A stretch of 64,000 nt of DNA from Kordia zhangzhouensis (GTDB lineage Bacteria > Bacteroidota > Bacteroidia > Flavobacteriales > Flavobacteriaceae). This document shows, in pieces, positions 5,538 to 57,313 of this stretch. The number at the start of each line of letters is the position of its first letter. The stretch's first letter is position 1. The notes beneath the pieces were generated by a model that searched no databases, was not told where the DNA came from, and worked only from the letters and a program-made list of their open reading frames with translations. The stretch spans positions 310,001-374,000 of the forward strand of contig NZ_LBMH01000005.1 in NCBI RefSeq assembly GCF_001005305.1, given 5' to 3'. A program made the position numbers and the translations under genes.

Positions 5538-5714
5538 TTAACAGAAACATGTATTTCCTCGTATGGTTTCACATTCATCTGCCGAATTCGGGCAATGGTC
5601 GGAAGTACAACAATAGCAAGTAAATAATGATCCGCCTCCTTTAATGTCAATTGTTCTCAATTCAGAAACTTTAATTTTTTTAAAGCTTAGTTTTCTGTTC
5701 GTTTTATTTTTCAT
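5538..5714 (-). CDS. Small GG-leader, Cys-rich RiPP-like precursor peptide (A)
   Basis: A 58-residue peptide read directly from the reverse strand, ATG at 5714 to TAA at 5538. The first ~28 residues form a Lys-rich leader with the pattern KLSFKKIKVSELRTI ending in GGG. This resembles leaders of Bacteroidota class I lanthipeptide-like and other double-glycine precursors (LxLxKxxIxxL). The core of about 30 residues holds seven cysteines (CYCC, HC, EC, TC, FC) and several Ser/Thr, suitable for thioether or disulfide formation. It has its own terminator and a strong hairpin just upstream. No LanB/LanC, radical SAM or peptidase-transporter gene is nearby, so any processing enzyme must be elsewhere. 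Function unknown; coding status is supported by leader similarity to two other peptides in the window. Confidence 0.75.
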   Translation of the reverse strand: MKNKTNRKLSFKKIKVSELRTIDIKGGGSLFTCYCCTSDHCPNSADECETIRGNTCFC

Positions 5715-5726
5715 AATAAATTGATT

Positions 5727-5755
5727 TTAATGAACTTTTAGTAAAAGTTCGTTAA
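5727..5755 (-). promoter_or_regulatory. 5' hairpin / inverted repeat upstream of peptide A
   Basis: Thirteen base pairs (5727-5739 with 5743-5755, one G-T wobble, loop agt) lie 13 bases before the start codon of the peptide gene. No U run follows, so it is more likely an operator or mRNA-stabilising hairpin than a terminator. Confidence 0.5.
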
Positions 5756-6080
5756 TATAGAATGATTGATGAATTCACCTAAAAAGATTTTCTTCTTTTA
5801 ATTACAAGAGAAATCTTTCTTAATATAGCTATACATAAAACTATGAATATCAGGTGTAGATTCCTACAACTTTATAAAAAATTTAACTCATTGATTCTCT
5901 GAATCATAACTTACACAAAACATTCCTTTCGCATGTCGTCTTTGTATTGTTTGGAAATTACCATTTTGGTATTTTTTATTTCTAAACTGACTTTTCATAA
6001 AGATATTATAAGGGCAAAAAAAGACGTATATATTCAAACTTTCCCTTTATATTTACACTTCTAAAAAGAATGTTCACGTT
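5756..6080. other. Intergenic region upstream of sdaA
   Basis: No intact gene is seen. It contains a 28-codon minus-strand fragment resembling the end of a LytTR domain (5911-5994), an imperfect hairpin tacca/tggta at 5959-5971 followed by a T run on the plus strand, and presumably the sdaA promoter in its last 80 bases. Confidence 0.6.
5911..5994 (-). pseudogene. Possible remnant of a LytTR-domain regulator (C-terminal end only)
   Basis: Between two in-frame stops the minus strand encodes 27 residues including IKNTKMVISKQYKDDMR. This resembles the last strand and helix of LytTR DNA-binding domains, where a basic S-R/K-x-Y/F-K motif ends the domain. Nothing upstream continues the domain in any frame I could follow. 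A short match in AT-rich DNA may be chance, so confidence is low. Confidence 0.25.
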
Positions 6081-7499
6081 ATGGAATACATTAGTGTTTT
6101 TGACATGCTCAAAATTGGTATAGGTCCTTCAAGTTCACACACATTAGGTCCGTGGCGAGCTGCAGAAAGTTGGATTAAAGAATTGAAGGCTGCCCATCTT
6201 TTTGACAAAGTTACTTCTGTAAAAGTTGATTTGTATGGCTCTTTGTCACTTACTGGGAAAGGACATGCTACCGATTTGGCAGTTTTACTAGGTCTCTATG
6301 GAGCAGATCCAGAAACTATTCCTACACAAGATATTCCTGTAATAGTGAATGCAATCAAAACGAAAAACATTTTACCTCTTAATCAAGAAAAAGAAATTGT
6401 TTTTACTCCTAGCAAAGATGTAGTATTCAACAACGATTTTTTACCATTTCATCCCAACGGAATTACGTTTCATGCAATTGTTGATCATAAAGTTTATTCT
6501 TCAACTTTTTATTCTATCGGTGGCGGTTTTGTAGTAAAGGAACATGAAACACATGCTGATACAGACCATCCTATTCGAATTTTCCCGTACTCTATTAACA
6601 AAGCAACAGATCTTATCAATTTTTGTACAAAAGAGAAAAAGAAAATTTCTGAAATTGTTTTATTAAATGAAACGTTGTTGCGCTTCCCAGAAGAGATTGA
6701 TGCTGAATTGCGTCGTGTTTGGAAAACCATGTTAGAATGTATGTATATTGGTTGCCATACTGAAGGAGTATTGCCTGGAGGTCTTAATGTAAGACGAAGA
6801 GCCTACGATATCCATCAAAAGTTAAAAAGTGATTTACCATATAGTTCTCCCGAAGAATGGCTGGAAACAATTCGCAAAACAGAAGTAAAATTCAGACAGA
6901 TTTTTAAATGGGTAAGTTGTTTTGCTCTTGCTGTAAATGAAGTAAATGCTTCTTTAGGGCGTGTCGTAACAGCTCCTACCAATGGAAGTGCAGGTGTTAT
7001 TCCTGCAGTTTTAATGTATTATATGGTTATAGAAAATCATAAAGCAGATTTTAAACATATTAAACGTTTTTTGCTAGTTGCTGGCGAAATTGGAAGTATT
7101 TTCAAAAAAGGAGCAACTATTTCTGCTGCAATGGGTGGTTGCCAAGCCGAGATTGGTGTATCTTCTGCTATGGCAGCTGGCGCACTTACAGAATTATTTG
7201 GCGGTTCGCCTGAACAAGTGATGATTGCCGCTGAGATAGCGATGGAACATCATTTAGGAATGACTTGTGATCCTATTGGTGGTTTGGTACAAGTTCCGTG
7301 TATTGAACGAAATTCCATGGGTGCTATTAAAGCTATCAATGCTGCCGAATTGGCCATGGAAACAGATCCTAAAGATGTTAAAGTTCCATTAGATAAAGTA
7401 ATTAGTACCATGTGGGAAACGGCAAAAGATATGAATTCTAAATATAAAGAAACATCTGAAGGTGGATTGGCCGTTGGTGTACATTTGGCAGATTGTTAG
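6081..7499 (+). CDS. sdaA: L-serine ammonia-lyase (iron-sulfur L-serine dehydratase), single chain
   Basis: A 472-residue enzyme converting L-serine to pyruvate and ammonia with a 4Fe-4S cluster. The N-terminal beta domain opens with [17 protein letters not shown], the family signature. The C-terminal alpha domain has [18 protein letters not shown], the cysteine in [16 protein letters not shown], and [18 protein letters not shown] with two further cluster cysteines. Length fits the E. coli-type fused alpha+beta form rather than the split Bacillus form. It stands alone, with convergent small gene 7569-8027 downstream. Confidence 0.95.
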
Positions 7500-7568
7500 T
7501 CTGAAAATGTGTATATTTTATTTTTTGCCCCTTTTTACTGAACAGCATTAGGATAGAGATATCAATAA

Positions 7569-8027
7569 CTAACTCTGACAGCCTTTTTTATGTCTAGTAT
7601 CTATTAAGTAAATTATTTTCCATTGTCCATTGTCTTTGAATAGTTGAAACGAATTGACTCCACAATGGAGAAACTTTCCATCCAACCAAAATTCGTAAGG
7701 AGTCCATACATTTGCCATTGTGCCATCTACTTGGACATTGTACGAAAGGATTTTTTCTTCCCAAATAGGATTTTCAGCTCTGCTTACAACTGCAGTTATA
7801 AAACCGTCTGCTTTTTGATTCCGAAGTATGGCTTTTCCCTCTTGATTAATAAAAGTAGTTTGTAGTATGATATCTTTATGAACAACCCGTTGCATCAAAG
7901 TTGAATCTTTTTGATGAAAACCTTCAAAAAACTGAATAACAGCTTGTTTAGCTGCTTTTTCATCGTCAGTTTGTGCTTGTGTATAAAAACTAACTAAAAA
8001 AAATACGAAGTAGAGATATTGTTTCAT
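7569..8027 (-). CDS. Secreted NTF2-like (SnoaL/DUF4440-type) protein
   Basis: A 152-residue protein with a signal peptide (MKQYLYFVFFLVSFYTQAQ) and then a small NTF2-like domain: an N-terminal helix KQAVIQFFEGFHQKD, the VVHKDIILQT strand region, and a C-terminal FQLFKDNGQWKIIYLIDTR, typical of SnoaL/DUF4440 folds. I chose the ATG at 8027 because it places the signal peptide at the N-terminus; ten extra codons are open upstream. Probably periplasmic or exported. Such domains bind small ligands or act as enzymes, and the specific role is unknown. Confidence 0.75.
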   Translation of the reverse strand: MKQYLYFVFFLVSFYTQAQTDDEKAAKQAVIQFFEGFHQKDSTLMQRVVHKDIILQTTFINQEGKAILRNQKADGFITAVVSRAENPIWEEKILSYNVQVDGTMANVWTPYEFWLDGKFLHCGVNSFQLFKDNGQWKIIYLIDTRHKKGCQS

Positions 8028-8125
8028 GATTGGTGATTTTTTTGAAAAATAATTCAAAAATTTAAAAAACTACTTAGTTTTACGATAGTTTTAAGAAATA
8101 AAAGCAAATCCTAATTATACATTTA

Positions 8126-8605
8126 ATGTTGTCTACTCCTAGCGTACAAATTTTAGCAGAAAAGAAACTCATCGGGAAATCTGCTCAGATGTCACTTTTA
8201 CAAAACACAACTCCCCTACTTTGGAAAAACTTCATGCAAGAACGAAAATCCATTCAAAATACAATTGGGAACCACTTGTATTCGCTTCAAGTATATGATA
8301 AAATGTACTTTACAGATTTTAATCCGCAAACAAAATTCACAAAGTACGCATTGACTGAAGTTTCTGATTTTGAATCTGTTCCAAAAAACATGGAATGCTT
8401 TACACTTAAAAGCGGATTGTATGTAGTGTTTCGTTACAAAGGCCTTCCTCAAAATTTTGCAGAAGCATTTCAATTTATTTTTCATGAATGGTTACCAAAT
8501 TCAGAATATGAATTAGATCATCGACCTCATTTTGAAGTTTTAGGAGAAAAATACAATCCTACGAGTGAAGAATCTGAAGAAGAAATTTGGATTCCTATCA
8601 AATAA
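8126..8605 (+). CDS. GyrI-like / AraC effector-binding-type domain protein
   Basis: A 159-residue cytoplasmic protein with the GyrI-like small-molecule-binding fold alone, without a helix-turn-helix. It starts with VQILAEKKLIGKSAQMSLLQNT, has a central YALTEVSDFESVPKNMECF, then GLYVVFRYKG, and ends with the diagnostic FIFHEWLPNSEYELDHRPHF and EIWIPIK. Stand-alone relatives bind cationic drugs or act on small hydrophobic ligands. No regulatory partner lies next to it. Family call is good; function is open. Confidence 0.8.
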   Translation: MLSTPSVQILAEKKLIGKSAQMSLLQNTTPLLWKNFMQERKSIQNTIGNHLYSLQVYDKMYFTDFNPQTKFTKYALTEVSDFESVPKNMECFTLKSGLYVVFRYKGLPQNFAEAFQFIFHEWLPNSEYELDHRPHFEVLGEKYNPTSEESEEEIWIPIK

Positions 8606-8703
8606 CCCAATCTTTTTCTTCCTAACTAAGCTAAAAAAACAAACAGTTCTCCTGCCAGCTTATATTTTTATTATTATTTTTACGTCCATAGAAAAATTAA
8701 CGT

Positions 8704-9522
8704 ATGTCTGTCGCAAAAAAACAATACAAGAGAGTTACTACAAAGTCGGTAGTTGAAATGAAGAATAATGGAGAAAAAATCTCCATGCTAACCGCATACG
8801 ATTACACCATGGCAAAGATTGTTGATGGTGCTGGAATTGACGTAATTCTTGTTGGTGATTCTGCAAGTAATGTTATGGCAGGACATGAAACGACACTCCC
8901 AATTACCCTTGATCAGATGATTTATCATGCATCCTCTGTTGTTAGGGCAATCACGCGAGCATTAGTAGTAGTTGATTTGCCTTTTGGAACGTATCAATCA
9001 GATCCGAAAGAAGCGTTGCGTTCTGCAATTCGCATCATGAAAGAATCTGGAGGACATGCTGTAAAAGTTGAAGGTGGAAAAGAAATTAAAGAATCTATTA
9101 AACGTATTTTAAACGCAGGAATTCCTGTAATGGGGCATTTAGGATTAACTCCACAATCCATTTACAAATTTGGAACATATACAGTTCGCGCTAAAGAAGA
9201 AGAGGAAGCTGATCAACTAAAAGAGGATGCTAAAATGCTAGAAAAAGCAGGTTGTTTTGCAATTGTATTAGAAAAAGTTCCTGCCAAATTAGCCAAAGAA
9301 GTTGCTGAAAGTTTAACCATTCCTGTTATTGGAATCGGAGCTGGAAATGGAGTTGACGGACAAGTACTTGTAACACATGACATGTTAGGGATGACACACG
9401 AATTTAATCCTCGTTTTTTACGACGTTACTTGAACATGTATGAAGAAATGACAAATGCTATCAAACAATATTCCGCTGATGTCAAGTCACATGATTTTCC
9501 GAATGAGAAAGAGCAGTATTAA
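8704..9522 (+). CDS. panB: 3-methyl-2-oxobutanoate hydroxymethyltransferase (ketopantoate hydroxymethyltransferase)
   Basis: A 272-residue enzyme that transfers a hydroxymethyl group from 5,10-methylene-tetrahydrofolate to 2-oxoisovalerate, the first committed step of pantothenate and CoA synthesis. Seen are the N-terminal [20 protein letters not shown], the metal-site aspartate in [38 protein letters not shown] and [15 protein letters not shown]. It is a cytoplasmic decamer in known relatives. It precedes an RluA-type pseudouridine synthase on the same strand; the other pan genes are not in the window. Confidence 0.97.
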
Positions 9523-9675
9523 AAATTTTGACTGTTGAATTATTGTTTTGACAAATATTTTTACCCACACATTATCCAATTTCGAGTGATTTTTTGCTGC
9601 ATTGAGTTCAATCGAGTTGACAAAAGATTGTATCAAGAAATACTTTGAAATTTTATAAAAACCTTCGAAAATCCA

Positions 9676-10368
9676 TTGAAAACCGTTTCCAACAAACACA
9701 ATCTCCAAGTACTATATGAAGACAATCATATCATTATTGTCAATAAACGTGCGGGTGATATTGTGCAAGGAGACAAAACCGGTGACAAACCTTTAAGCGA
9801 AGTTGTAAAAGAATATATTGCAGAAAAATATCAGAAACCAGGCAATGTGTTTCTTGGTGTTGTACATAGACTTGACAGACCTACTACTGGAATTGTTGTT
9901 TTTGCTAGAACTTCGAAAGCCTTACCACGATTAAATTCTCTTTTTGCAGAAAAAAAAGCCAAAAAAACGTATTGGGCAATTGTAAAAAATGAGCCGCAAA
10001 AAAAACAAGATACGCTAATCCATTGGCTTCGAAAAAATCCAAAAAATAACAAATCTTCTGCTTTTCAGACTGAAGTAAAAGATAGCAAAAAAGCAATCTT
10101 AGAGTACACAGTTAAGAAAAAGCTAGATCGATATGTATGGTTAGAAGTTTTACTCCACACAGGTCGTCATCATCAAATCAGAGCGCAATTAGCAAGTATA
10201 GGTTGTCCTATAAAAGGCGACTTAAAGTATGGCTTTGATCGAAGTAATAAAGACGGTAGTATTCATTTGCATGCACGAAAATTAGTATTTACACATCCTG
10301 TAAAAAAAGAACCCTTAGAAATTATAGCGCCTTTACCTAACGATTCAATATGGAATGCGTGTATTTAA
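9676..10368 (+). CDS. RluA-family RNA pseudouridine synthase
   Basis: A 230-residue pseudouridine synthase of the RluA/RluC/RluD family, here without an S4 domain. The catalytic aspartate is in VVHRLDRPTTGIVVFARTSKAL near residue 64, followed by KTYWAIVKN and LHTGRHHQIRAQLASIGCPI. The start is TTG at 9676: no in-frame ATG exists before the conserved NLQVLYEDNHIIIVNK, so a TTG start is the best fit. Target RNA and position cannot be deduced from sequence. It sits 153 bases after panB, possibly co-transcribed. Confidence 0.88.
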   Translation: MKTVSNKHNLQVLYEDNHIIIVNKRAGDIVQGDKTGDKPLSEVVKEYIAEKYQKPGNVFLGVVHRLDRPTTGIVVFARTSKALPRLNSLFAEKKAKKTYWAIVKNEPQKKQDTLIHWLRKNPKNNKSSAFQTEVKDSKKAILEYTVKKKLDRYVWLEVLLHTGRHHQIRAQLASIGCPIKGDLKYGFDRSNKDGSIHLHARKLVFTHPVKKEPLEIIAPLPNDSIWNACI

Positions 10369-10464
10369 TATACTGTTGATAACCTTGCTCAAAAGTCATT
10401 TATAGACAGCTCCCATTTTTAAAGATAAATTTCTACTTTTAATCATAATCAAACTATTTTTAAC

Positions 10465-11502
10465 ATGCGTATTGAAAGTGGATTAAAGTTAGGTTTTAAA
10501 GATGTCATGATTCGACCAAAGCGATCTACCTTAAAAAGTCGTTCGCAAGTTTCTTTAGAGCGTACTTATAAATTTTTACATAGTTCCTACGAATGGGCAG
10601 GAATTCCTATTATGGCTGCCAATATGGACACTGTAGGCACCTTTGACATGGCAAAAGCATTAGCCTCTAAAAATTTATTCACTGCAATCCATAAGCACTA
10701 TTCATTAGATCAATGGAATGATTTTATGGCTTCTATACCGCAACATTACATTCCACATATCGCTGTTAGCACTGGAACTGGAGAAAATGACAATGAGAAA
10801 CTACGAACAATTTTTGGTGTATATCCACAGCTCAAATTTATTTGCATAGATGTTGCGAATGGATATTCACAACACTTCGTTGATTTTGTAAAAAATGCAC
10901 GTACTCAATTTCCTGATAAGGTTATCATTGCCGGAAATGTGGTTACTGGCGAAATGGTAGAAGAATTAATCCTATCTGGAGCAGATATCGTAAAAGTAGG
11001 TATTGGTCCTGGTTCAGTTTGCACCACACGTGTAAAAACAGGTGTTGGTTATCCGCAACTTTCTGCTATTATTGAATGTGCCGATGCTGCGCATGGTTTA
11101 GGTGGACATATTATTTCAGATGGCGGATGTACTACTCCAGGTGATGTTGCCAAAGCTTTTGGCGCTGGTGCAGACTTTGTCATGCTTGGTGGAATGCTTT
11201 CTGGACATGACGAAAGTGGAGGTGAATTGATTGAACGAAATGGCCAAAAGTACAAACAATTTTATGGAATGAGTTCTGCAACGGCAATGGAAAAACATGT
11301 TGGTGGTGTAGCAGATTACCGAGCTTCTGAAGGAAAAACTGTCGAAATACCATTGAAAGGTCCTGTATCTGCTACTGTTCAGGATATTTTAGGAGGTATT
11401 CGAAGTACATGTACTTATGTAGGTGCTTCTCGTTTAAAAGAATTGACAAAACGCACCACTTTTATACGTGTATCAGAACAAGAGAATAGAGTTTATTCTT
11501 AA
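10465..11502 (+). CDS. guaC: GMP reductase
   Basis: A 345-residue NADPH-dependent enzyme converting GMP to IMP, balancing purine nucleotide pools. It shows the IMPDH/GMPR barrel with the catalytic cysteine in [20 protein letters not shown], the phosphate-binding [20 protein letters not shown], and the GMPR-type KFYG-like active loop ([15 protein letters not shown]). There is no CBS pair, which separates it from IMP dehydrogenase. The N-terminus [17 protein letters not shown] is also GMPR-like. It converges with mgsA. Confidence 0.95.
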
Positions 11503-11514
11503 CAACTTACTATT

Positions 11515-11886
11515 TTATTGCACTGAAATTGCTTTCATCAATAATTCAGCTGCAGCTGGATTAGTGGCTAACGGAACATTATGCACATCGCACAAACGCA
11601 TTAACATTAATACATCTGGCTCATGTGGATGTTTTTCTAGCGGATCACGAAAAAACAATACCAAATTACAAGTTCCTTCGGCCACACGCGCAGCTATTTG
11701 AGCATCACCTCCATGTGGCCCAGAAAGTAGTTTTAAAACTTCAAAACCTGCTTTCTCAACTTTTCCACCGGTAGTACCAGTTGCTATTAATTTAATTTTC
11801 TTGCTATGTAATATTTCCGCATGTTCGTTAAGAAATTGAACCATTTCTGCTTTTTTCCCATCATGCGCAATAATTGCAATTTCCAT
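11515..11886 (-). CDS. mgsA: Methylglyoxal synthase
   Basis: A 123-residue cytoplasmic enzyme converting dihydroxyacetone phosphate to methylglyoxal and phosphate, an overflow branch of glycolysis. The family signature is clear: IAHDGKKAEMVQF, TGTTGGKVEKAG, then SGPHGGDAQIAARVAEG with the catalytic aspartate of GGD, and FFRDPLEKHPHEPDV. It is shorter than the E. coli enzyme at both ends but the core is complete. Its start lies three bases after the stop of the BadF-type kinase, so the two are one transcript. The nearby pfkA and gapA make a glycolysis-related context. Confidence 0.93.
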   Translation of the reverse strand: MEIAIIAHDGKKAEMVQFLNEHAEILHSKKIKLIATGTTGGKVEKAGFEVLKLLSGPHGGDAQIAARVAEGTCNLVLFFRDPLEKHPHEPDVLMLMRLCDVHNVPLATNPAAAELLMKAISVQ

Positions 11887-11889
11887 TAA

Positions 11890-12759
11890 CTAACTTTTTC
11901 TTAATTGTTTCGTATGAAAAGCTACTAAACCTTCAATTGGTCTGCGAATAAAATTACCAACGGTAAATCCAAACTCTTGAGCTACTTCTCTGATTTCAGC
12001 TTCTGAAAAGAACGCTATTGAACCTGCAAAATGAACAGGAACTGTTTTGATTTCTTCTTTAAATTGCATAATCATATTTTCTGCGAAGAGACGAAATCCT
12101 TTTTTTATCAATTCAACTACATAATCGGAGTCTTTATTCAGAAACATGAATTCTGCAAAGTTGGCTAAATATGCATTAGGATTGGGTTGTTTATAGAGAT
12201 TGTATTTAATGTAATCACTATCTAAATTGTAGCGTTCTTCAAAAGCAACTCGGATAGCTGTTGGCATTTTATGGAAATAGTAATCACGAATTAATTGTTT
12301 TCCGTAGTAATTTCCGCTTGCATCGTCCATTAAGGTATATCCCAACGAATTTACCCGTTGATGCAATTGATTTCCATCATAATAGCTACAATTAGAACCA
12401 GTACCTTGAATACAAACTACTGCTGCTTCATCGGCATGATTAATCGTAGCATATACAGCTGCTAATGTATCTTCGTTGACCTCTACCAATGCATTTGGAA
12501 AAAAGTCTTCCAAAACACCTTTTAGTAATAGGCGCGGATTTTCTGTTCCACATCCAGCTCCATAGAAAAAGATATGTGTCACAGTATGACGATGTGCAGA
12601 GAGTTCTTTACTTTTTTTAATGGTTTTTTTTAGCTTTTTCTCCGTAAGAATAGCAGGATTTAATCCTTTGGTTCGAAGTTTGTCTAATAATTGATTCCCT
12701 TCTTTGTCTACTGCAATCCAATCACATTTGGTGGAGCCGCTATCTACTACTAAAATCAT
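11890..12759 (-). CDS. BadF/BadG-family N-acetylglucosamine-kinase-like ATPase
   Basis: A 289-residue member of the ASKHA fold. Phosphate-1 loop VVDSGSTKCDWI is at the N-terminus, and VVCIQGTGSNCSYYDG plus VHFAGSIAFFSEAE give phosphate-2 and adenosine motifs. Eukaryote-like N-acetylglucosamine kinases belong here, and flavobacterial copies are annotated so, but the substrate has not been shown. It is translationally close to mgsA (3-base gap) and downstream of gapA across a terminator. A role in amino-sugar or peptidoglycan recycling is an inference. Confidence 0.8.
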   Translation of the reverse strand: MILVVDSGSTKCDWIAVDKEGNQLLDKLRTKGLNPAILTEKKLKKTIKKSKELSAHRHTVTHIFFYGAGCGTENPRLLLKGVLEDFFPNALVEVNEDTLAAVYATINHADEAAVVCIQGTGSNCSYYDGNQLHQRVNSLGYTLMDDASGNYYGKQLIRDYYFHKMPTAIRVAFEERYNLDSDYIKYNLYKQPNPNAYLANFAEFMFLNKDSDYVVELIKKGFRLFAENMIMQFKEEIKTVPVHFAGSIAFFSEAEIREVAQEFGFTVGNFIRRPIEGLVAFHTKQLRKS

Positions 12760-12795
12760 AGAGTGAGTGTATAATGATGTCTTTTTTTATAAAAT

Positions 12796-12835
12796 AAAAA
12801 AGCGTAGTCAAAAATTAGCATGACTACGCTTTTAA
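12796..12835 (-). terminator. Terminator after gapA
   Basis: The 10-bp perfect stem agcgtagtca/tgactacgct (12801-12810, 12821-12830) is followed on the minus strand by a T run. It separates gapA from the downstream sugar kinase and mgsA. Confidence 0.85.
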
Positions 12836-12842
12836 AGGTTTC

Positions 12843-13862
<1,020 letters not shown>

Positions 13863-13868
13863 TTAGTA

Positions 13869-14855: not shown

Positions 14856-15125
14856 GCAATTTTTTGTTTAGAGTAGTAAAGCTAGGAAACTTATTTTGAT
14901 TTTGTAGCACGCTTTACGCGAATTTTAAATTGTTGAGAAATTTCAAACGTTTTCGTTAATAAGTTCTCAGAATTTTAACGTTTTGCTTAGGTTTTTTTTC
15001 ACTTTTATCAATGTTTGCATTATTGAAAATGAGCGATTTTACACTGAGCTACTTGTTTATTTTTGCTTTGGAAAGATTGGATTTTATGTAAAAAAACTGC
15101 GTAAAGAATATAGTGAAAAACGTAT

Positions 15126-45341: not shown

Positions 45342-45602
45342 ATGAAAAAAAGAAATTTAAAAAATCTAAAACTTACCAAACAATCTATTTCAAATCTTAC
45401 GAATCAAATTAACGGAGGAGCTGAAACTGGTGGATATTGTGAGACTATATTAAGATCTTTTCTTTATGGTAATTGCCCTATAGATGATCCAGGTGAACCA
45501 CTCCCTTTAACAGCAGATGTATTAGATTGTCCAGACAACAGCCTTTATGGATCTTGTTCTTTAGGATATTGTGTAGAAACTTTTTGGTGTAAGCCTAGTT
45601 AA
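45342..45602 (+). CDS. GG-leader, Cys-rich RiPP-like precursor peptide (B)
   Basis: An 86-residue peptide. Leader residues 1-26 are Lys-rich with LKNLKLTKQSISNL and end in NGG. The core of 60 residues has six cysteines, no long hydrophobic segment, and repeated Gly/Ser/Tyr (LYGSCSLGYC). The leader is nearly the same as that of the peptide at 57146-57313. It has its own terminator and an upstream inverted repeat, with no modification or export genes alongside. Likely a bacteriocin-like or signalling RiPP precursor; processing partner unknown. Bacteroidota GG-leader families exist, but none matches exactly by eye. Confidence 0.78.
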   Translation: MKKRNLKNLKLTKQSISNLTNQINGGAETGGYCETILRSFLYGNCPIDDPGEPLPLTADVLDCPDNSLYGSCSLGYCVETFWCKPS

Positions 45603-45621
45603 TCCTTATCAATGCATAAAA

Positions 45622-45652
45622 AAATGGCAGCCTTTGGCTGCCATTTTTCTTT
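45622..45652. terminator. Terminator after peptide B, bidirectional with OmpA gene
   Basis: Stem aaatggcagcc/ggctgccattt (45622-45647) with ttt loop and T run, 20 bases after the peptide stop. It also lies about 30 bases after the convergent OmpA gene stop and could serve both. Confidence 0.88.
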
Positions 45653-47942: not shown

Positions 47943-47961
47943 ACCCAAAAATATGTATAAA

Positions 47962-49012: not shown

Positions 49013-49052
49013 TCTTTGCTTTTTGGGTTTTTGGTAAATATAAATTGTAAAT

Positions 49053-51467
49053 CTAAAATCCGCAACTATCAGTTCCAATTGGCGAACCATCTGGAATTTT
49101 TGGAGATGTTTCTAAAACAAACTTTTCAGGATTTTTTTTAAATCTAGCTATAGTTTCTAAATAATAATCTTGATATGGCTTCTCTGTTTCCAAAAAATTC
49201 CTTGACTTGATTGTTTTCTCTATCTTATTTAATGCATAAATACTTTGCGCCTTAACTGCTGGAGAAGAAGCCTCATGTTGAACTAAATTCATTAAGTGTT
49301 TTAGCACATTTGTATTTATTGCAAATCCAATCTGACTTTCGTATGAATTAGCATATGTTTTATATATAGTGTTTTGCAATACTTCTTGAAGCATTTCGTC
49401 AAAACCTAGCTGATTAGGACTTAAGCTTTTTTGCTGAAGTAATCGTGCAATGCGCTCAGGATGAAATAAAAATCGTAAAGTCATATCGCTTGCTGTTGTT
49501 GCTGGAGCTAAAGCATCAAAAGCGACTCCTGTATTTCCTTTAAACGATTCGCGAGAACGACCATACCCAAAAGCTCTTGGTGGAAATAAAGCCAGTTTAT
49601 CTTCAGGAATTTTTAAGGTTTTGGCATCTATCGTTTTTAATATTGCCTTCAACGCTTCCCGTTGCATCTTCGCATCAACCGTTTGCACTATTAATTGTCC
49701 ATCATTTTTGGTTGCGTAATTATATTCTAATCCTCCAATCAACTTAGACGTAGCTTCTGTTTGGTATCGATGAAAAAAATACAACGGCACAAACACGTCT
49801 TCCAACACCGTATACGGTTCATAACTGCGAATATTTTCTTTCGAGAAATTCTTAATCGCCAATTCACGTACTCTCAATACATTTTCCAATTCTTCTGAAG
49901 CACTCTTTCCATTATCCCACAAATGTGCTTTGGCATGCGCACCACCAGCAGGCCGTGCATCTGCATCTGAAATAAAACGATGTCCCGCTTTGTATGCATC
50001 ACTTAATATTTTTTGCAATTCTTCTTTTTCAGCTTCCGCAGAAGGAAATTCTGCATAAGAATAGGCTACAGTTACTTTATCCCACAAACCAATTCCGGTA
50101 GCATATGCCTCCGACAAATCAATTTTTCCATTTGTAATTTTTACTGTAGGATGCGGATAATCCATTACAGAACTTCTATTGTTGGTACTCGCTACAAAAT
50201 TATGCGCAAAACCAATCGTGTGACCTACTTCATGTGCCGATAATTGCCGAATTCTTGCCAGCGCCATTTGCAACATAGGTTCATAATTAGCATCATTGGT
50301 CGCGAAGGGCTGATTCATCAGAGCTTGAGCGATCAAAAAATCTTGACGAATACGTAAACTTCCCAAACTCACATGTCCTTTGATAATTTCTCCTGTTCGA
50401 GGATCTACTACACTTGCTCCATAACTCCAACCTCTTGTAGAACGGTGTACCCATTGAATAACATTATAACGCACATCCATTGGATCGGCGTCTTTAGGTA
50501 GCATTTTTACTTGAAAAGCATTGGAATAACCTATTTCCTCATATGCTTCATTCCACCAACGTGCGCCATCTAATAAAGCAGAACGTACAGGCTCAGGCGT
50601 TCCAGGGTCGAGGTAATAAATAATAGGTTTTTTTGCTTCACTTTTTTTAGCTCTAGGATTTTTCTTTTCTAACCGATGACGTGTTACAAAACGCTTCAAC
50701 ATAGGTTCTTGAATAGGAGAAGCATAATCATAGTAAGAAATACTAATGGCGCCACTACGAGGATCAAAAACTCTTGACTGGTATTGATTATCAGGCAACT
50801 CTACAAACGAATGATGCTGTATAACAGATACTAATGATGCATTTGGCGTCACACTTTTTATATAATTTCCTTTTGGTTCTCCGTTAAAAGTTAATAGTGC
50901 TTCAAACTCTACATTTTTAGGAAATGCTTTTACACGTTCTAAAGCAATAGCGCTTTTAGTAGTATCTAATTTGTATTTTCCTTGTTTCGATTTGGCTAAA
51001 CTTTCAATCACTCCATGAGTATCTTGTAATAAAAAAGGGGTCAAATCAATCGTATATTTTTGATCTTTTTCTGAAACAATTGGAAATCCAAATAAAACCG
51101 ATCTTGCAAATGCTTGTTCTACACTTTTACGTTCAAGATCATTCGTTGTATTAGCACGGTATTGTAAATTCGGCTGAATTAGTAGTAGCTTATTGCCCAT
51201 TTTTTGAAATTGTACTACCACTCCATCGCCTATTTGCCCTCTGTCCAATCCGATATCGTTAGAACCTATACCACTAGCTAGCGAATACACATACAAAAAA
51301 TCTTCATTCAGCTTTTCTACCTCTAGAAATATCTTGTCTGTTTTCTCTTCATAAGAAAAATTAAAAAATCCACTGTATTGCTGCCTAAAATGTTGCTTGC
51401 TTTTTTCTTGAGAAAAACACAACACACTGCTTAAAGAAATGAAAATGAAAAAAATATATGCTTTCAT
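49053..51467 (-). CDS. Secreted zinc-dependent metalloprotease (DUF5117/DUF5118)
   Basis: An 804-residue exported protease with signal MKAYIFFIFISLSSVLCFS. DUF5118 and DUF5117-type regions cover residues 30-300 (FLYVYSLASGIGSNDIGLDR), followed by the zinc site QLSAHEVGHTIGFAHNF near residue 415 and SVMDYPHP, the usual family sequence. The C-terminal region (residues 650-800) is helical. Presumably acts in the periplasm or outside the cell; substrate unknown. The next gene on the strand, ltaE, is unrelated. Confidence 0.88.
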   Translation of the reverse strand: MKAYIFFIFISLSSVLCFSQEKSKQHFRQQYSGFFNFSYEEKTDKIFLEVEKLNEDFLYVYSLASGIGSNDIGLDRGQIGDGVVVQFQKMGNKLLLIQPNLQYRANTTNDLERKSVEQAFARSVLFGFPIVSEKDQKYTIDLTPFLLQDTHGVIESLAKSKQGKYKLDTTKSAIALERVKAFPKNVEFEALLTFNGEPKGNYIKSVTPNASLVSVIQHHSFVELPDNQYQSRVFDPRSGAISISYYDYASPIQEPMLKRFVTRHRLEKKNPRAKKSEAKKPIIYYLDPGTPEPVRSALLDGARWWNEAYEEIGYSNAFQVKMLPKDADPMDVRYNVIQWVHRSTRGWSYGASVVDPRTGEIIKGHVSLGSLRIRQDFLIAQALMNQPFATNDANYEPMLQMALARIRQLSAHEVGHTIGFAHNFVASTNNRSSVMDYPHPTVKITNGKIDLSEAYATGIGLWDKVTVAYSYAEFPSAEAEKEELQKILSDAYKAGHRFISDADARPAGGAHAKAHLWDNGKSASEELENVLRVRELAIKNFSKENIRSYEPYTVLEDVFVPLYFFHRYQTEATSKLIGGLEYNYATKNDGQLIVQTVDAKMQREALKAILKTIDAKTLKIPEDKLALFPPRAFGYGRSRESFKGNTGVAFDALAPATTASDMTLRFLFHPERIARLLQQKSLSPNQLGFDEMLQEVLQNTIYKTYANSYESQIGFAINTNVLKHLMNLVQHEASSPAVKAQSIYALNKIEKTIKSRNFLETEKPYQDYYLETIARFKKNPEKFVLETSPKIPDGSPIGTDSCGF

Positions 51468-51577
51468 CTGAACTAGATTTTAAGGTTGCAAAAACCTAAG
51501 ACATATTACTTTTTGAAGTTATCGTTAGAATTGTCTTGGTTTTTCATTTTTGCGCTATGAATATACATAAAACATCT

Positions 51578-51585
51578 TATTTTTG
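51578..51585 (+). promoter_or_regulatory. Candidate -7 box of the prfB promoter
   Basis: TATTTTTG fits TAnnTTTG and is 20 bases before the prfB ATG. The -33 TTG is not found at ideal spacing, so confidence is limited. Confidence 0.35.
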
Positions 51586-51605
51586 TAGGAATAAAAACAA
51601 TAAAC

Positions 51606-52713
51606 ATGATAACTTCAGATCACGTAAAAGATCTTATTGATCGCCTTGGTGCGTTAAGGAGGTATCTTTGACATAGATGCCAAACGAATTGAGATTGCCA
51701 ACGAAGAAGAAAAAACATATGCGCCAGATTTTTGGGACACCCCAAGAGAAGCTGAGGCTATAATGAAAAGACTTCGAGGAGAAAAAAAATGGGTGGAAGA
51801 TTACAACTCAGTAGCTACACTTATTGGAGACCTTGAAGTATTGTATGATTTTTACAAAGAAGGAGATGCTACTGCTGCTGAAGTAGAAGCCCAGTTTGAA
51901 AAAACAATTGCCAAAGTTGAAGACTTGGAGTTCCGAAACATGTTATCTGACGAAGGCGATAATATGAGTGCTGTATTACAAATTACAGCTGGTGCTGGTG
52001 GAACAGAGAGCTGTGATTGGGCGAGCATGTTGATGCGTATGTACTTAATGTTTGCAGAAAAACAAGGGTACAAAATCAAAGAGCTCAACTATCAAGAAGG
52101 CGATGTAGCAGGAATAAAAACCGTAACACTTGAAATAGAAGGTGATTATGCCTTTGGTTGGTTAAAAGGTGAAAATGGCGTACATCGATTGGTGCGTATT
52201 TCTCCTTTTGACAGTAACGCCAAACGACATACGTCATTTGCTTCTGTATATGTGTATCCGTTGGTAGATGACACAATCGAAATTGAAATCAATCCTGCGG
52301 ATATTGAAATTACAACCGCGCGTTCTAGTGGTGCTGGTGGACAAAATGTAAACAAAGTTGAAACCAAAGTTCAGCTGACTCACAAGCCAACAGGAATTCA
52401 AATTTCATGCTCTGAAACAAGATCACAACATGATAATCGTACCAGAGCTATGCAAATGTTAAAATCACAGTTGTATGAAATTGAGCTTAAAAAGCAAATG
52501 GAAGCACGTGACGATATTGAAGCTGGCAAAATGAAGATTGAGTGGGGATCGCAAATCCGCAATTACGTAATGCACCCATATAAATTGGTAAAAGATGTTC
52601 GTACAGGACATGAAACCGGAAACGTAGATGCAGTAATGGATGGATATATTGATGAGTTCCTAAAATCGTATTTAATGTCGATGGGACAACAAAAAGAAAG
52701 CAACGAATTATAA
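51606..52713 (+). CDS. prfB: Peptide chain release factor 2, programmed +1 frameshift
   Basis: A 368-residue release factor read from ATG 51606. Codon 22 is an in-frame TGA at 51669-51671, and the conserved sequence continues in the +1 frame from 51670, giving the classical RF2 autoregulatory frameshift. The protein has the RF2 stop-recognition SPF in [10 protein letters not shown] and the GGQ in [13 protein letters not shown], which catalyses release of the peptide. It decodes UAA and UGA. Total length is close to the E. coli protein. The first 21 codons are a separate short frame that is easily missed. Confidence 0.97.
51657..51671 (+). promoter_or_regulatory. RF2 frameshift site (AGGAGG-TAT-CTT-TGA)
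   Basis: aggaggtat ctt tga: a Shine-Dalgarno-like AGGAGG stretch at 51657-51662, slippery CTT at 51666-51668, and a TGA stop followed by C, identical in layout to the E. coli RF2 site. Low RF2 favours slipping and continued translation. Confidence 0.95.
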
Positions 52714-52772
52714 ACAAAGAGTGTGTTCTATAATTTTACTATACTTGTAACAGCTAACTTAATTCAGAAAAA

Positions 52773-53390
52773 ATGATTATTTATGGAACTGGTTCCAAAG
52801 ATTTAGGAACTCGAAAATTACAAGGAGCCAAATGTCCAAATTGTGAAGCGAATGAGATTCACGTTCAAGCAGTTTCCAAGTATTTTGATGTGTTTTGGAT
52901 TCCTATTTTACCTTATTCAAAAAAATACTTTTCCATTTGTGGACACTGTAAACAAGTCTTGAAAAAGAAGGAAATGCCGCAACAAATAAAGGACAAATTA
53001 GAAGTTGAAAAACATCATTTTAAAACGCCTATCTATTTATTTACGGGTATAGTACTTATAGCATTTTTGATTGCTTATTTATTTTATGATGCGAGCAAAG
53101 ATAGAGAACAACTTATGGTACATGTCAAAAATTTAGAACCAAAAGATGTGATTGTTTTTGATGTATTATCTAAAGAATATTCCTTTGCGGAAGTTGTGCA
53201 ACATTCCAACGACACTATTTATATGTACTATGGAAATTATACGGTTGATAAAGCTCCATCTCAACACGAAGTTGATGAAAAACGTAAAGAATTAGCTGAT
53301 TTTTTCTCGGAAGATGTTTTCTATTTTACCCAAAAGCAAATTGATTCTTTACATGAAAAAGGTGAAATCAAAACTATTTTTAAATACTAA
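52773..53390 (+). CDS. Zinc-ribbon single-pass membrane protein
   Basis: A 205-residue protein. An N-terminal zinc ribbon uses two CxxC pairs (AKCPNCEANEI and SICGHCKQVL, about residues 25 and 63), with FDVFWIPILPYSKKYF between them. One transmembrane helix follows (PIYLFTGIVLIAFLIAYLFY near 88-107), and a C-terminal soluble domain ends it. The family is seen across flavobacteria but its function is unknown. It is 6 bases ahead of arsC and likely shares its transcript. Confidence 0.72.
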   Translation: MIIYGTGSKDLGTRKLQGAKCPNCEANEIHVQAVSKYFDVFWIPILPYSKKYFSICGHCKQVLKKKEMPQQIKDKLEVEKHHFKTPIYLFTGIVLIAFLIAYLFYDASKDREQLMVHVKNLEPKDVIVFDVLSKEYSFAEVVQHSNDTIYMYYGNYTVDKAPSQHEVDEKRKELADFFSEDVFYFTQKQIDSLHEKGEIKTIFKY

Positions 53391-53396
53391 AAAATC

Positions 53397-53738
53397 ATGC
53401 TAAAAATATATCATAACCCAAGATGCCGAAAATCTAGAGAAGGTTTGGCAATTTTGGAAGCCTCAGGAAAAGATTTTGAAATTGTTAACTATCTTGACGC
53501 CCCTCTTTCTGTAGAAAATTTAACAGAAATCATTCAACTATTAAAAATTTCACCCATTGAATTAATTCGCACCAGCGAAAATATATGGAAAGAAAATTAT
53601 AAAGGAAAAGAACTTTCAAATGCTGAAATCATTCAAGCAATGGCTGAACATCCAAAACTCATTGAACGACCAATTGTTATTCACAATCAAAAAGCTGTAA
53701 TTGGTAGGCCTCCAGAAAAAATTAATGACATACTATAA
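53397..53738 (+). CDS. arsC: Arsenate reductase, glutaredoxin-type (ArsC/Spx family)
   Basis: A 113-residue protein with the active-site cysteine in IYHNPRCRKSREGLAIL and the arginine triad site in LIERPIVIHNQKAVIGRPP. Reduces arsenate to arsenite with glutaredoxin/glutathione-type donors in known enzymes; some relatives of this family have other substrates. It lies far from the arsR/DUF6428 pair at 27 kb. It follows the zinc-ribbon gene by 6 bases and ends in a strong terminator. Confidence 0.85.
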   Translation: MLKIYHNPRCRKSREGLAILEASGKDFEIVNYLDAPLSVENLTEIIQLLKISPIELIRTSENIWKENYKGKELSNAEIIQAMAEHPKLIERPIVIHNQKAVIGRPPEKINDIL

Positions 53739-53743
53739 AAAAG

Positions 53744-53776
53744 AAAAAACCAGTGAATTCACTGGTTTTTTCTTTT
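53744..53776 (+). terminator. Terminator after arsC
   Basis: Stem aaaaaaccagtga/tcactggtttttt (53744-53771) and T run immediately after the stop. Confidence 0.88.
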
Positions 53777-53873
53777 AACAGAACTTTAACCTTCATTGGT
53801 TAAACCATAGCTTTTCTTTGCAGTCAAAAAGTACAGTAAACCAAAAAGCTATACTAAGAAAACTACTCACTAC

Positions 53874-56318
53874 ATGAAAAAACTATTTCTATTCCTATGT
53901 TTAATAGGAACTGTTTCTACTGTATTCTCACAAAACAGAAATACTTCTAAAAAAGTAACTATTACTGGAACAGTTTATGAAAAAACAACCAAACAACCTT
54001 TAGAATTCGCTACAATTATTTTTCAAGATTCTGCAAAAAAAAGACCAATTACAGGTGGTATAACAAACAATAAAGGTACTTTTTCTATTGAAGTTGATGC
54101 TGACACGTATGACATTCGCTTCGAATTTATTTCTTTCGAAACCCAAGAGATAAAAAATAAACCTCTGTATGAAAATATGTCTATTGGAGAAATATATCTC
54201 TCGGAAGATTCCCAAAGTTTGCAAGCCGTAGAAATTATAGCAGAGAAAACAACTGTTGATATTAAACTTGATAAAAAAATATACAATGTTGGAAAAGATT
54301 TAACAGTACGTGGTGGAACTGTTAGTGACGTATTAGATAATGTTCCTTCTGTTTCTGTTGATGTAGAAGGAAATGTGTCGCTTCGTGGTAATGAAAATGT
54401 TCGTATCCTTATCAACGGAAAACCTTCTGGATTAGTTGGATTGAATTCTACAGATGCATTACGACAACTGCCTGCAGATGCAATAGAGAAAGTAGAAATC
54501 ATTACCTCTCCATCGGCACGATATGATGCTGAAGGAACGGCTGGAATTTTAAATATTATTCTTCGTCGTAGTAAATTGCAGGGAATTAATGGTGCAATCT
54601 CTACAAACGTTTCTTACCCATTAGGTTATGGTGTTTCTGGAAATATCAATTACCGTACGGGTGATTTCAATTTTTTCACAACTTCTGGTTACAATTATCG
54701 TGAAGTGCCTGGAAATTCAAATACTTTTACCGAATACTTCAATGGAGATAATCCCAATACTTTCTTGAATGAAGATCGTGATTTTGACCGTACCCAAAAA
54801 GGTATTAATACCAATCTTGGTGTAGAATGGTATATAAATGATAAAACTTCGTTAACCGCAACCGTTTTTTATCGTGACAGTAATGATGAGAGTGAAACAG
54901 CTAACATTTTAACACAATACGATGCCGATTTTAATGTCACAAATGTAAGTAGCCGTTTTGACCCTGAAACAGAAGATGATACTACACTTCAATATGCTGT
55001 GAATTTTGACAAAAATTTTGAAAAAAGCGGACATAAATTGACTGCTGATTTTCAATATGAAAATAGTCGTGAAGCGGAAAACTCTTTTATTTTAGTAGAC
55101 AATATTTTGTCTGAGCAAGTAGCTACTATTGAAGAGCAAGACCGTTTATTATTGCAAACAGACTATGTAGTTCCAACAAGTGAAACAGCTCAATTTGAAT
55201 TTGGCTACCGTGGAAACTTTTTAGATTTAACTACTGATTATTTAGTTGCTTTTCTTGAAAATGATGTGTTTGTTCCTGATGCCAACTTAAGTAATGTATT
55301 GAATTACCGTGAATATGTAAATGCTATTTACTCTCAATATGGTAATAAAATCAATGATAAATTTTCCTTTTTAGTAGGATTACGAATGGAAAGTACTCGT
55401 ATTACAATTGATCAATTAACAAGTAGTGATTTTGATCGAAAAAATTATATTGGTTTTTTCCCTACCATCAATTTAGGATATGAAATTAACGAAAATCAAA
55501 GCATTACTTTAGGATACAATCGAAGAATTAGACGACCACGCTCGCGATTTATCAACCCATTCCCTTCTCGTTCGAGTATTACGAACGTTTTTCAAGGAAA
55601 TCCAGATATTGACCCAAGCTATTCTAACGGAGTTGATCTTGGATATTTGAATCGTATAGGGAAATTTACGTTAAATACTTCTGTGTATTTTCAACGCTCA
55701 ACCGATGTCTTTAATTTCATCAGTGAAGATACCGGTCAAACGGTGCTTCTAAATGGTGAGGAAGTGCCAATTATACGACGAACTCCAATCAACTTAGCAA
55801 GAAATGATCGTTTTGGTTTCGAATTTACTGTAACATATAATCCTTCTAGAAAATGGCGGTTGAACGGAAACTTTAACCTTTTTCAATCTTACAATCGAGG
55901 AGAGTTTAACGGAACAAATTTTGATGCTGACAATTTAAGTTGGTTTGTTCGTGTAAATAATAAAGTAACGCTTCCTGGAAGTATCGATTGGCAAACCCGT
56001 TTATTTTATAGCGGTCCTAATGAAGATGCTCAAAATATTCGTAAAGGTTTGTTTTCAGCTAATTTAGCTTTTAGCAAAGACTTATTTGATGAAAACGCTT
56101 CAATTGCGTTCAATGTTAGTGATGTCTTCAATTCCAGAAAAAGACGTTCAGAATCTTTTACTGATACCTTCTTTAGTGAAGGAGAATTTCAATGGAGAGA
56201 GCGTACCTTCAACCTTTCCTTTACATATCGTTTTAATCAGAAAAAGAAAAATGAACGCAACAGAGGAAATAACAATGATGATGATGGAGATGATGGCGGA
56301 TTTAGAGCAACACCATAA
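53874..56318 (+). CDS. TonB-dependent receptor, OMP_b-brl_3 type
   Basis: An 814-residue outer-membrane protein with signal MKKLFLFLCLIGTVSTVFSQ. A carboxypeptidase-regulatory-like domain covers about residues 28-110 (ITGTVYEKTTKQPLEFATII), then the plug with RGNENVRILINGKPSGLVG and IEKVEIITSPSARYDAEGTA, and an outer-membrane beta-barrel (OMP_b-brl_3) to the end. The C-terminus is an unusual Asn/Asp tail (RGNNNDDDGDDGG). Ligand unknown; no SusD partner is present, so it is not a glycan PUL pair. Confidence 0.88.
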   Translation: MKKLFLFLCLIGTVSTVFSQNRNTSKKVTITGTVYEKTTKQPLEFATIIFQDSAKKRPITGGITNNKGTFSIEVDADTYDIRFEFISFETQEIKNKPLYENMSIGEIYLSEDSQSLQAVEIIAEKTTVDIKLDKKIYNVGKDLTVRGGTVSDVLDNVPSVSVDVEGNVSLRGNENVRILINGKPSGLVGLNSTDALRQLPADAIEKVEIITSPSARYDAEGTAGILNIILRRSKLQGINGAISTNVSYPLGYGVSGNINYRTGDFNFFTTSGYNYREVPGNSNTFTEYFNGDNPNTFLNEDRDFDRTQKGINTNLGVEWYINDKTSLTATVFYRDSNDESETANILTQYDADFNVTNVSSRFDPETEDDTTLQYAVNFDKNFEKSGHKLTADFQYENSREAENSFILVDNILSEQVATIEEQDRLLLQTDYVVPTSETAQFEFGYRGNFLDLTTDYLVAFLENDVFVPDANLSNVLNYREYVNAIYSQYGNKINDKFSFLVGLRMESTRITIDQLTSSDFDRKNYIGFFPTINLGYEINENQSITLGYNRRIRRPRSRFINPFPSRSSITNVFQGNPDIDPSYSNGVDLGYLNRIGKFTLNTSVYFQRSTDVFNFISEDTGQTVLLNGEEVPIIRRTPINLARNDRFGFEFTVTYNPSRKWRLNGNFNLFQSYNRGEFNGTNFDADNLSWFVRVNNKVTLPGSIDWQTRLFYSGPNEDAQNIRKGLFSANLAFSKDLFDENASIAFNVSDVFNSRKRRSESFTDTFFSEGEFQWRERTFNLSFTYRFNQKKKNERNRGNNNDDDGDDGGFRATP

Positions 56319-56326
56319 AATTACTC

Positions 56327-56359
56327 AAGCTGCAAATATTATTTTTGCAGCTTTTTTTA
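56327..56359 (+). terminator. Terminator after the TonB receptor
   Basis: Stem aagctgcaaa/tttgcagctt (56327-56336, 56344-56353) followed by a T run, directly downstream of the stop. Confidence 0.87.
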
Positions 56360-56467
56360 TACGATTTAACTTACGTAAAAATTGCCGAATTAATGTAAAA
56401 CATAGGTTTTTCCTCGTGTCATATATTACTTTTTTGTACTTTAGAATTTTATAAAATACATCATCTA

Positions 56468-57064
56468 ATGGCACACGCAGCACCTAAAACAGAAAGTACC
56501 GATCGTGTAAAATTACCTTTTACTTTTGATGCAGAAAAAATGGTAGCAGAATTTGAAGCATTAAAATTGAATAATTTTGAATATTACAATGTCATTCCGC
56601 TACGTGCGCCGGCACATACAGTGGATACTTCATTGCCTTTTCCTCCTCCTGCAGATGATTATGCGGATGGTTCTTGGTGTGATTGGATGGACACAAACTA
56701 TTTACAAAGTTCACCGTATTTGAATGAAGTTATTGATTTTTTTAAGGCCAATACTACCGTAACTCTTGTTCGGTTGTTACGCTTGGCTCCACATTCGATA
56801 GTGCAAGAACACACAGACCCAACTTTGGGCTTGGAAGTGCACAAATCAGTAATTCGTTTAACAGTTCCTATTCTAAATAAAGAAGGAATTCAATTTTTTC
56901 TAAATAATTCTGAAGTACGCATGCAACCTGGAGAATGTTGGTATTTACGTCTCACAGATCCGCATAGAGTTTTAAACAATGGTGATACTGAGCGTGTCAA
57001 TTTAACAATTGATATGATTCCAAATGAGTGGATTCGAAATATCATCAGAGAAAGTGACGTTTAA
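56468..57064 (+). CDS. Aspartyl/asparaginyl beta-hydroxylase-domain oxygenase
   Basis: A 198-residue non-haem iron, 2-oxoglutarate-type oxygenase. It has HTDPTLGLEVHKS near residue 117, holding the iron-binding His and Asp, followed by VIRLTVPI and a distal histidine in LTDPHRVLNNGD near residue 175 with the arginine for 2-oxoglutarate. It is cytoplasmic and resembles the AspH domain that hydroxylates Asp or Asn side chains. It converges on the GG-leader peptide 57146-57313, which may or may not be its target. Confidence 0.82.
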   Translation: MAHAAPKTESTDRVKLPFTFDAEKMVAEFEALKLNNFEYYNVIPLRAPAHTVDTSLPFPPPADDYADGSWCDWMDTNYLQSSPYLNEVIDFFKANTTVTLVRLLRLAPHSIVQEHTDPTLGLEVHKSVIRLTVPILNKEGIQFFLNNSEVRMQPGECWYLRLTDPHRVLNNGDTERVNLTIDMIPNEWIRNIIRESDV

Positions 57065-57085
57065 TTTTCAGAGTTAAAAAAAAGA

Positions 57086-57120
57086 ACCTGTTTTAAAAGT
57101 TAAACTTTTAAAACAAGCTC
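57086..57120. terminator. Terminator between the oxygenase and peptide C
   Basis: A long AT-rich stem around tgttttaaaagtt/aacttttaaaaca (57090-57116) with an A run on the left and T-rich tract on the right, so it can serve both convergent genes. Confidence 0.75.
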
Positions 57121-57145
57121 TTTTCTTGACAACTGTCGTTTTTTT

Positions 57146-57313
57146 TTATTCCCAACACCAAGATGCGTCTTGTTGTGTATAACAATTGATGATATCTGAA
57201 GCTTCAATAGGTCTTGCTGGCGGTTCAACAGTATTTTTTCCTCCTATTAGTTTTGCAAAATTTGAGATTGATTTTTTGTTCAATTTCAAATTTTTTAAAT
57301 GTTGTTTTTTCAT
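57146..57313 (-). CDS. GG-leader RiPP-like precursor peptide (C)
   Basis: A 55-residue peptide from ATG 57313 to TAA 57146. Leader residues 1-25 (LKNLKLNKKSISNFAKLIGG) are almost those of peptide B. The 30-residue core is short, with only two cysteines but two tryptophans at the end (SWCWE) and a Pro-rich PPARP stretch, unlike the Cys-rich peptides A and B. It therefore may be modified differently. An inverted repeat lies about 50 bases upstream. No maturation gene is adjacent apart from the convergent Asp/Asn-hydroxylase-type oxygenase. Function unknown. Confidence 0.72.
   Translation of the reverse strand: MKKQHLKNLKLNKKSISNFAKLIGGKNTVEPPARPIEASDIINCYTQQDASWCWE

Follow-up and report, generated by a model that had tools for sequence, protein, structure and literature searches.

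The DNA stretch analysed here (the window) comprises 64,000 nucleotides of the Kordia zhangzhouensis genome (assembly GCF_001005305.1, contig NZ_LBMH01000005.1, positions 310,001 to 374,000) and contains three small genes, designated A, B and C, that encode candidate precursors of ribosomally synthesised and post-translationally modified peptides (RiPPs). As the initial annotation had described, each precursor consists of a leader that ends in GGG (A) or GG (B and C) and a core of its own. Precursor A (58 aa; 5538-5714, minus strand) joins a leader encoded at 5634-5714 to a further glycine and a core with seven cysteines; B (86 aa; 45342-45602, plus strand) has its leader at 45342-45419 and a core with six cysteines; and C (55 aa; 57146-57313, minus strand) has its leader at 57239-57313 and a core with two cysteines and two tryptophans. 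The leaders of B and C have LKNLKLxKxSISN in common and that of A is more distant (KLSFKKIKVSEL), and a profile confirmed the relatedness of all three: a hidden Markov model built from 120 family leaders with A, B and C excluded (although the profile first used to collect the family did contain them) found A at 23.6 bits (E 2.5e-7), B at 39.2 bits (E 3.2e-12) and C at 31.4 bits (E 8.5e-10). It picked only these three out of the 103 open reading frames (ORFs) of 40-140 aa in the window, the next best scoring 2.4 bits (E 1.0). That A, B and C are unrelated look-alike lysine-rich ORFs can be rejected, since the held-out profile sets them apart from the 100 others.

All three are lone genes, each with a hairpin and a run of T's behind it, in agreement with their earlier description as single genes with their own terminators. 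The terminator scan placed terminator-like hairpins after B (45620-45648, plus strand, 13 pairs) and C (57124-57080, minus strand, 20 pairs); after A, where the consensus scan made no call, folding gave a 13-pair hairpin with a T tail that is a probable terminator (5518-5490, minus strand; -15.3 kcal/mol, z -4.0). A Pfam scan of the ten neighbouring ORFs identified Hsp70, serine dehydratase, prolyl oligopeptidase, YbaB, OmpA, DUF1508 and DUF6095 proteins, a TonB-type outer-membrane protein, a bicarbonate transporter and, beside C at 56468-57064, an Asp/Asn beta-hydroxylase-like protein (PF05118, 40.3 bits). No LanB, LanC, radical SAM, ATP-grasp or C39 peptidase protein was among these ten, and none of them is a known RiPP maturation enzyme.

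The genome to which the window belongs (G000; 4.03 Mb in 43 contigs, 99.97% complete) holds many more such genes. Below, C12, C22, contig C39 (of which the window is part) and the like denote contigs of this genome, the C39 peptidase being a separate thing; other G-numbers denote comparison genomes and L-numbers the stretches read. A search with peptide C alone found 54 places in G000 at E<=10, and a profile of 57 leaders (56 of 58 members read earlier and one from another reading) found 128 at the same threshold. Because 150 candidates were scored per genome (in G000, 150 of 214), all leader counts are lower bounds; at E<=1e-5, one search gave 56 in G000 and another 78. We read 126 of the 128 places, two lying outside the fetched stretches, and left three out of the classification: a leader that lacks GG, a gene interrupted by a stop and a sequence that is not a precursor. 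The remaining 123 encode a leader followed by a core, and another member that was read (C22:217102-217326) is not among the 128. The annotation had named three members, inferred a dispersed family from them and suggested a search of the whole genome for further leaders; the dispersal stands, and the family is about 40 times larger than three. Precursors occur on average every ~33 kb, and finding three of them within 64 kb is ordinary for G000.

The leader consensus, MKKxxLKxLxLNKKxISNL...GG, is rich in lysine, and GG stands at the leader/core junction in 113 of the 123 precursors. The cores are 16-77 aa long (median 38), and every one of them, A, B and C included, contains both cysteine and serine or threonine and hence the residues to form rings; 120 have at least two cysteines, with a median of four. 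Cysteine makes up 11.7% of core letters versus 0.1% of leader letters, and played no part in classifying the precursors; in a comparison set of 1,050 other small ORFs of the fetched loci, it accounts for 3.4% of letters after residue 27, and 32% of these ORFs have two or more. When the 57 leaders were compared with NCBIfam at E<=0.1, 45 matched NF038153 (lant_leader_L1a), six matched NF038158 (lant_leader_L1b), and none matched any other model. On these matches, the family leaders would be of the class I lanthipeptide type defined by NCBI, with A and C below the NF038153 cut-off and B without a match; taken by themselves, A, B and C gave weak model matches. With 2 kb linkage, the 123 precursors form 88 loci (64 singles, 16 pairs, five triples and three groups of four).

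The enzymes expected for such leaders are encoded on another contig than A, B and C, as the annotation had surmised in placing the machinery elsewhere; its call for a search for maturation genes led to LanB, LanC and a C39-ABC exporter in a single locus at C12:15.6-26.3 kb. Lant_dehydr_N has exactly one match in the whole genome (contig C12, E 1.4e-151), and this locus contains LanC, LanB-N, LanB-C, a TPR-AraC regulator, two leader-bearing ORFs (C12:21967-22209 and C12:22389-22643), HlyD and the exporter. LanB is split into two neighbouring ORFs (PF04738, Lant_dehydr_N, E 3.9e-151; PF14028, Lant_dehydr_C, E 9.5e-75), and both the glutamylation and the elimination domain of a dehydratase are present. 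The LanC protein (PF05147, E 4e-46) is a separate cyclase. In an alignment with the LanC-like protein 8byk, its AWCYG and VCHG fall opposite AWCYG and FCHG. The WCYG and CHG motifs of LanC constitute its metal site. The exporter combines a C39 peptidase (E 1.8e-37) with ABC domains and is matched over nearly its whole length by the C39 bacteriocin transporter 4ry2, and solved relatives of the machinery proteins include NisB and NisC. This is also the one near-complete C39 peptidase match in the genome; a double-glycine leader and a C39-ABC exporter are both present, with cleavage after GG being predicted. A second C39 match over cut-off (C1:64234) was rejected, as it is a 518-aa VKOR-type protein that covers part of the C39 profile and is not an ABC exporter. 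The VKOR-type protein, with its partial C39-like N-terminal part (L071:3163-4719; C1:63.2-65.7 kb), lies 1.2 kb before a family precursor and possibly takes part in disulfide chemistry.

Comparison across genomes ties the leader to LanB. All 11 Kordia genomes examined have exactly one LanB-N each, together with leader matches (E<=1e-5) that range from at least 78 to at least 146. Among 149 genomes drawn evenly from the bacterial family, four have leader matches at this threshold and 15 have LanB-N, with all four inside the 15; when G000 is excluded, the three leader genomes of 148 all fall inside the 14 LanB genomes (~7e-4, hypergeometric, ignoring kinship). In two of them, G016 and G121, leader matches lie within ~4 kb of LanB, and G068 has nine over four contigs, so that a small dispersed set occurs outside Kordia too. 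A scan with LanB also gave 20 named loci, eight from Kordia and 12 from others (Lacinutrix, Leptobacterium, Aquimarina, Psychroserpens, uncultured Flavobacteriaceae and one Aminicenantes). Leader-family ORFs were found within 10 kb of LanB in 19 of the 20, and in 11 of the 12 outside Kordia, the exception being the short Aminicenantes locus; in the Lacinutrix locus, MMKKKNLKSLKLNKKSISNF, nearly the leader of B and C, is found 1.6 kb from LanB. The family sample, the named loci and the Kordia counts are not independent, because some of the records are the same organisms.

We consider it likely that A, B and C are three of ~125 scattered class I lanthipeptide-type precursors on which machinery acts in trans, as on a prochlorosin-like library. 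Each gene would give a peptide in which the shared lysine-rich leader precedes an individual core rich in Cys, Ser and Thr; the only LanB, split as it is, would recognise the leader and dehydrate core serines and threonines via glutamylation; the LanC beside it would close (methyl)lanthionine rings with core cysteines, the dehydration and cyclisation chemistry being that known for the enzyme families; and the C39-ABC/HlyD exporter of the same locus would cut after GG and secrete the core. One trans-acting enzyme set would in this way serve a genome-wide library, acting on most of its members, some of which would come and go as single-gene cassettes, and the peptides would probably be used in competition or interaction with other microbes or algae. 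The secreted-peptide network that the annotation proposed to check stays a hypothesis.

Several observations weigh against this proposal. The family has no known product. In class I systems a precursor gene usually, though not necessarily, lies next to LanB/LanC; this holds for the two leader-bearing ORFs of the machinery locus and in relatives, but not for A, B and C, which are on contig C39 while LanB is on C12. The LanB-adjacent precursors have a somewhat different leader type, such that the locus could be dedicated to them. For NF038153 (cut-off 22 bits), A scores 13.2 and C 9.7 bits, and B has no match. In the family sample, 11 of 15 genomes with LanB lack a leader match at E<=1e-5. Most cores in G000 have no relationship to one another (at E<=1e-3 there are 23 core pairs, drawn from only 31 of the 123), and a very tolerant enzyme would therefore be required. 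With a grasp-with-spasm pair beside one precursor, the leader may also be used by enzymes other than LanB/LanC. Finally, in 20 stretches from ten other Kordia genomes, picked among the best matches listed, six of the 38 family ORFs read have no cysteine and so cannot form lanthionine rings.

The cysteine-free ORFs fit an explanation in which the shared leader is an export signal only: the C39 transporter would cut and secrete all cores and LanB/LanC would modify the few adjoining ones, the rest being unmodified or disulfide-rich, like class II bacteriocins or ComC-like pheromones. The frequency of GG at the leader end and the one near-complete C39 peptidase, in its ABC exporter, suit this too, and A is weakly ComC-like (12.8 bits, below cut-off). 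We nevertheless think it unlikely, given that the leader has the LxLxKx5L pattern that class I LanAs of Bacteroidetes are reported to carry (PMC7268733) and matches class I lanthipeptide models, that it occurs near LanB in nearly all named loci, and that cysteine and serine or threonine come together in all 123 cores of G000. Neighbouring members in three stretches of other Kordia (L169, L174 and L175) have the same leader and cysteine-free cores, several of them alanine-rich; such members are perhaps unmodified bacteriocin-like peptides that use the same export route.

A further alternative, which overlaps the trans-acting lanthipeptide system that we favour, is mixed maturation, in which the common leader is read by LanB/LanC, by a grasp-with-spasm pair and by a LanC-like protein with a nucleotidyltransferase, each serving part of the family. 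The grasp-with-spasm pair (C33:525-527 kb; L053:248-2478), with TIGR04192 and TIGR04193 above cut-off, adjoins a convergent family precursor (C33:527520-527702; L053:2620-2802), and it may serve some family members. On contig C12 (L095:8361-10448; C12:70360-72447), a LanC-like protein, a nucleotidyltransferase (NTP_transf_2) and a family precursor (C12:72241) stand in a row that resembles an arrangement mentioned in PMC11118758. The LanC-like protein, however, matches positions 6-154 of the 350 in the profile only, and neighbours were scanned for a minority of the precursors; we regard mixed maturation as possible but doubtful. Radical SAM maturation is not favoured: of three SPASM matches in the genome, one, which scores below cut-off, belongs to the grasp-with-spasm pair as its SPASM component, and the other two are radical SAM/SPASM proteins with no family ORF in their 3 kb loci, radical SAM proteins without SPASM not having been searched for.

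The remaining LanC matches in G000 are the partial one just described (C12:70462), a weak one, and one at C1:109394. The last belongs to a second lanthipeptide-like locus (C1:105569-110479; L094:3570-8480) composed of a kinase, a HopA1-domain protein and LanC, in which the kinase matches LxmK weakly (61.7 bits against a cut-off of 315). Ahead of these genes lies a 310-aa ORF made up of repeats such as GPTGTQGCTIVGPTGYQGC. The locus resembles class V, with the unusual long repeat protein as a possible substrate.

Dispersed copies with related flanks raise the question of whether the precursors are decaying or selfish repeats, spread by duplication and mostly non-functional. BLAST of flanks (E<=1e-4) gave 32 upstream and 68 downstream pairs, of which 9 and 40 join non-neighbours; the downstream ones are mostly a single short terminator-like hairpin, AGCGAACTTCGGTTCGCT followed by T's. 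This hairpin follows nine dispersed precursors (C22:294771, C22:547138, C33:234928, C3:39070, C4:51729, C4:15289, C22:112634, C40:295837 and C8:47463), which account for nine of its 11 copies within the 663 kb of loci examined. It is possibly a terminator in common use or the end of a cassette. One member (L062; contig C39:188486-188563) has a TAG stop inside its leader, which fits gene turnover, and the site of B is empty in one relative, as described below. Against decay, the interrupted gene is the one visibly broken member among 126 read, and the 123 cores fall into 103 similarity groups. Ten cross-species pairs, chosen for core similarity, which favours conserved pairs, and with dS above 1, gave dN/dS of 0.17 in the leader and 0.15 in the core; 42 of 44 cysteines in the alignments are conserved, and these ten show purifying selection. 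We consider the decaying-repeat explanation highly improbable. Upstream of the 123 genes, with the reverse complement as the only control, a search for a shared promoter motif yielded A/T-rich words and, at -13 to -11, a run rich in A, and a DNA-pattern search was too loose to use (35 matches versus 16 in the reversed control).

Synteny was examined for the neighbourhood of B and C. Only one of seven stretches, that of G152, covers the site of B, and there the site is empty, with conserved flanking genes ~50 bp apart versus ~475 bp where B is present; B is thus a one-gene cassette with presence and absence. The neighbour of C is present in seven of the ten other Kordia genomes, and in the 18 kb stretches around it no family ORF was found in these seven, two matches (E 0.055 and 0.081) not being member-like. 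The DNA of the PF05118 ORF beside C is kept in six other Kordia stretches with no family member there; the place of C is taken by another small ORF without the leader in G152, and five further genomes have the neighbours of C separated by 8 to 12 kb of other DNA. A B-like core occurs in G150, adjoining a relative of contig C39:295133, and these genes are 60 kb apart in G000. Among the 38 family ORFs sampled from other Kordia, 19 have a core relative in G000.

The TPR-AraC regulator encoded in the LanB locus has relatives at 13 places in the loci examined, some matching its DNA-binding part only. Ten of these TPR-AraC/HTH_18 regulators precede a same-strand precursor by 88-483 nt (L068:4296-6017, L155, L148, L151, L055, L165, L166, L141 and L092/L093; one is in the LanB locus); the relative at C22:215310-216992, for example, ends 110 nt before the member at C22:217102. 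The pairing is enriched by design because the loci were chosen around precursors. The copy in the LanB locus has a membrane-like stretch, and these regulators are possibly dedicated sensors.

To our knowledge, work on one enzyme with many substrates (ProcM, SyncM) rests on class II enzymes, and among the matches listed in our literature searches we found no paper on one LanB with many scattered class I precursors. The leader type and the RiPP richness of Kordia are already in print. Bacteroidota class I lanthipeptide precursors have been described with LxLxKx5L...GG leaders (PMC7268733), and the system in G000 is like theirs in leader motif, GG end, C39 exporter, LanB/LanC and Cys/Ser/Thr cores; those precursors were sought within seven genes of LanC, whereas more than 120 precursors of G000 lie away from the only LanB-N. 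An ocean RiPP census names Kordia as an example of richness in lanthipeptides and radical SAM peptides, reports up to 176 precursors in one Bacteroidota genome and mentions LanC with a nucleotidyltransferase (PMC11118758); unlike the present analysis, its excerpted text draws no link from these precursors to a single LanB or a single leader. For Kordia algicida OT-1, the excerpt of PMC3091789 gives a LanABC cluster with LanB, LanC and one LanA candidate and names no dispersed family, in contrast to the scattered precursors of G000. In addition, a lanthipeptide cluster was called by antiSMASH in K. antarctica (PMC7477175), and Kordia has been noted as rich in clusters (PMC10734526).

The organisation is reminiscent of the prochlorosins and synechococsins, whose numerous scattered precursors likewise share a leader type and a GG motif and are diverse in their cores; service by one enzyme would be the corresponding feature in Kordia, where 123 precursors face one LanB-N. 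That number exceeds the 79 putative precursors reported for SyncM (PMC10783134). ProcM and SyncM, however, are class II LanM enzymes with Nif11 leaders, whereas G000 has a split class I LanB, a LanC and a short lysine-rich leader. The Kordia system would thus work like the prochlorosins and yet is no member of that group, because enzyme class and leader differ.

A broader proposal, which we put forward tentatively as plausible though not quite probable, is that 80 to 150 or more precursor genes, often present as lone cassettes, make up a genome-wide library with fast turnover in every Kordia species, and that one split LanB/LanC pair reads it in trans. Such a library would parallel the prochlorosins within class I and would exceed that of SyncM in size; a subset would be wired to its own membrane TPR-AraC sensor, and the whole would form a secreted combinatorial peptide system directed against or towards neighbours. 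For genomes of this kind, searching only near enzymes misses nearly all precursors. If one enzyme set does act in trans on the family, Kordia would offer a natural test of LanB tolerance, with one dehydratase and one cyclase for more than 120 mostly unrelated cores, and would supply both the enzymes and a library of substrates for the production of ringed peptides. It would also make it testable why so many small secreted peptides are kept by marine flavobacteria for which algicidal activity has been reported (PMC10734526).

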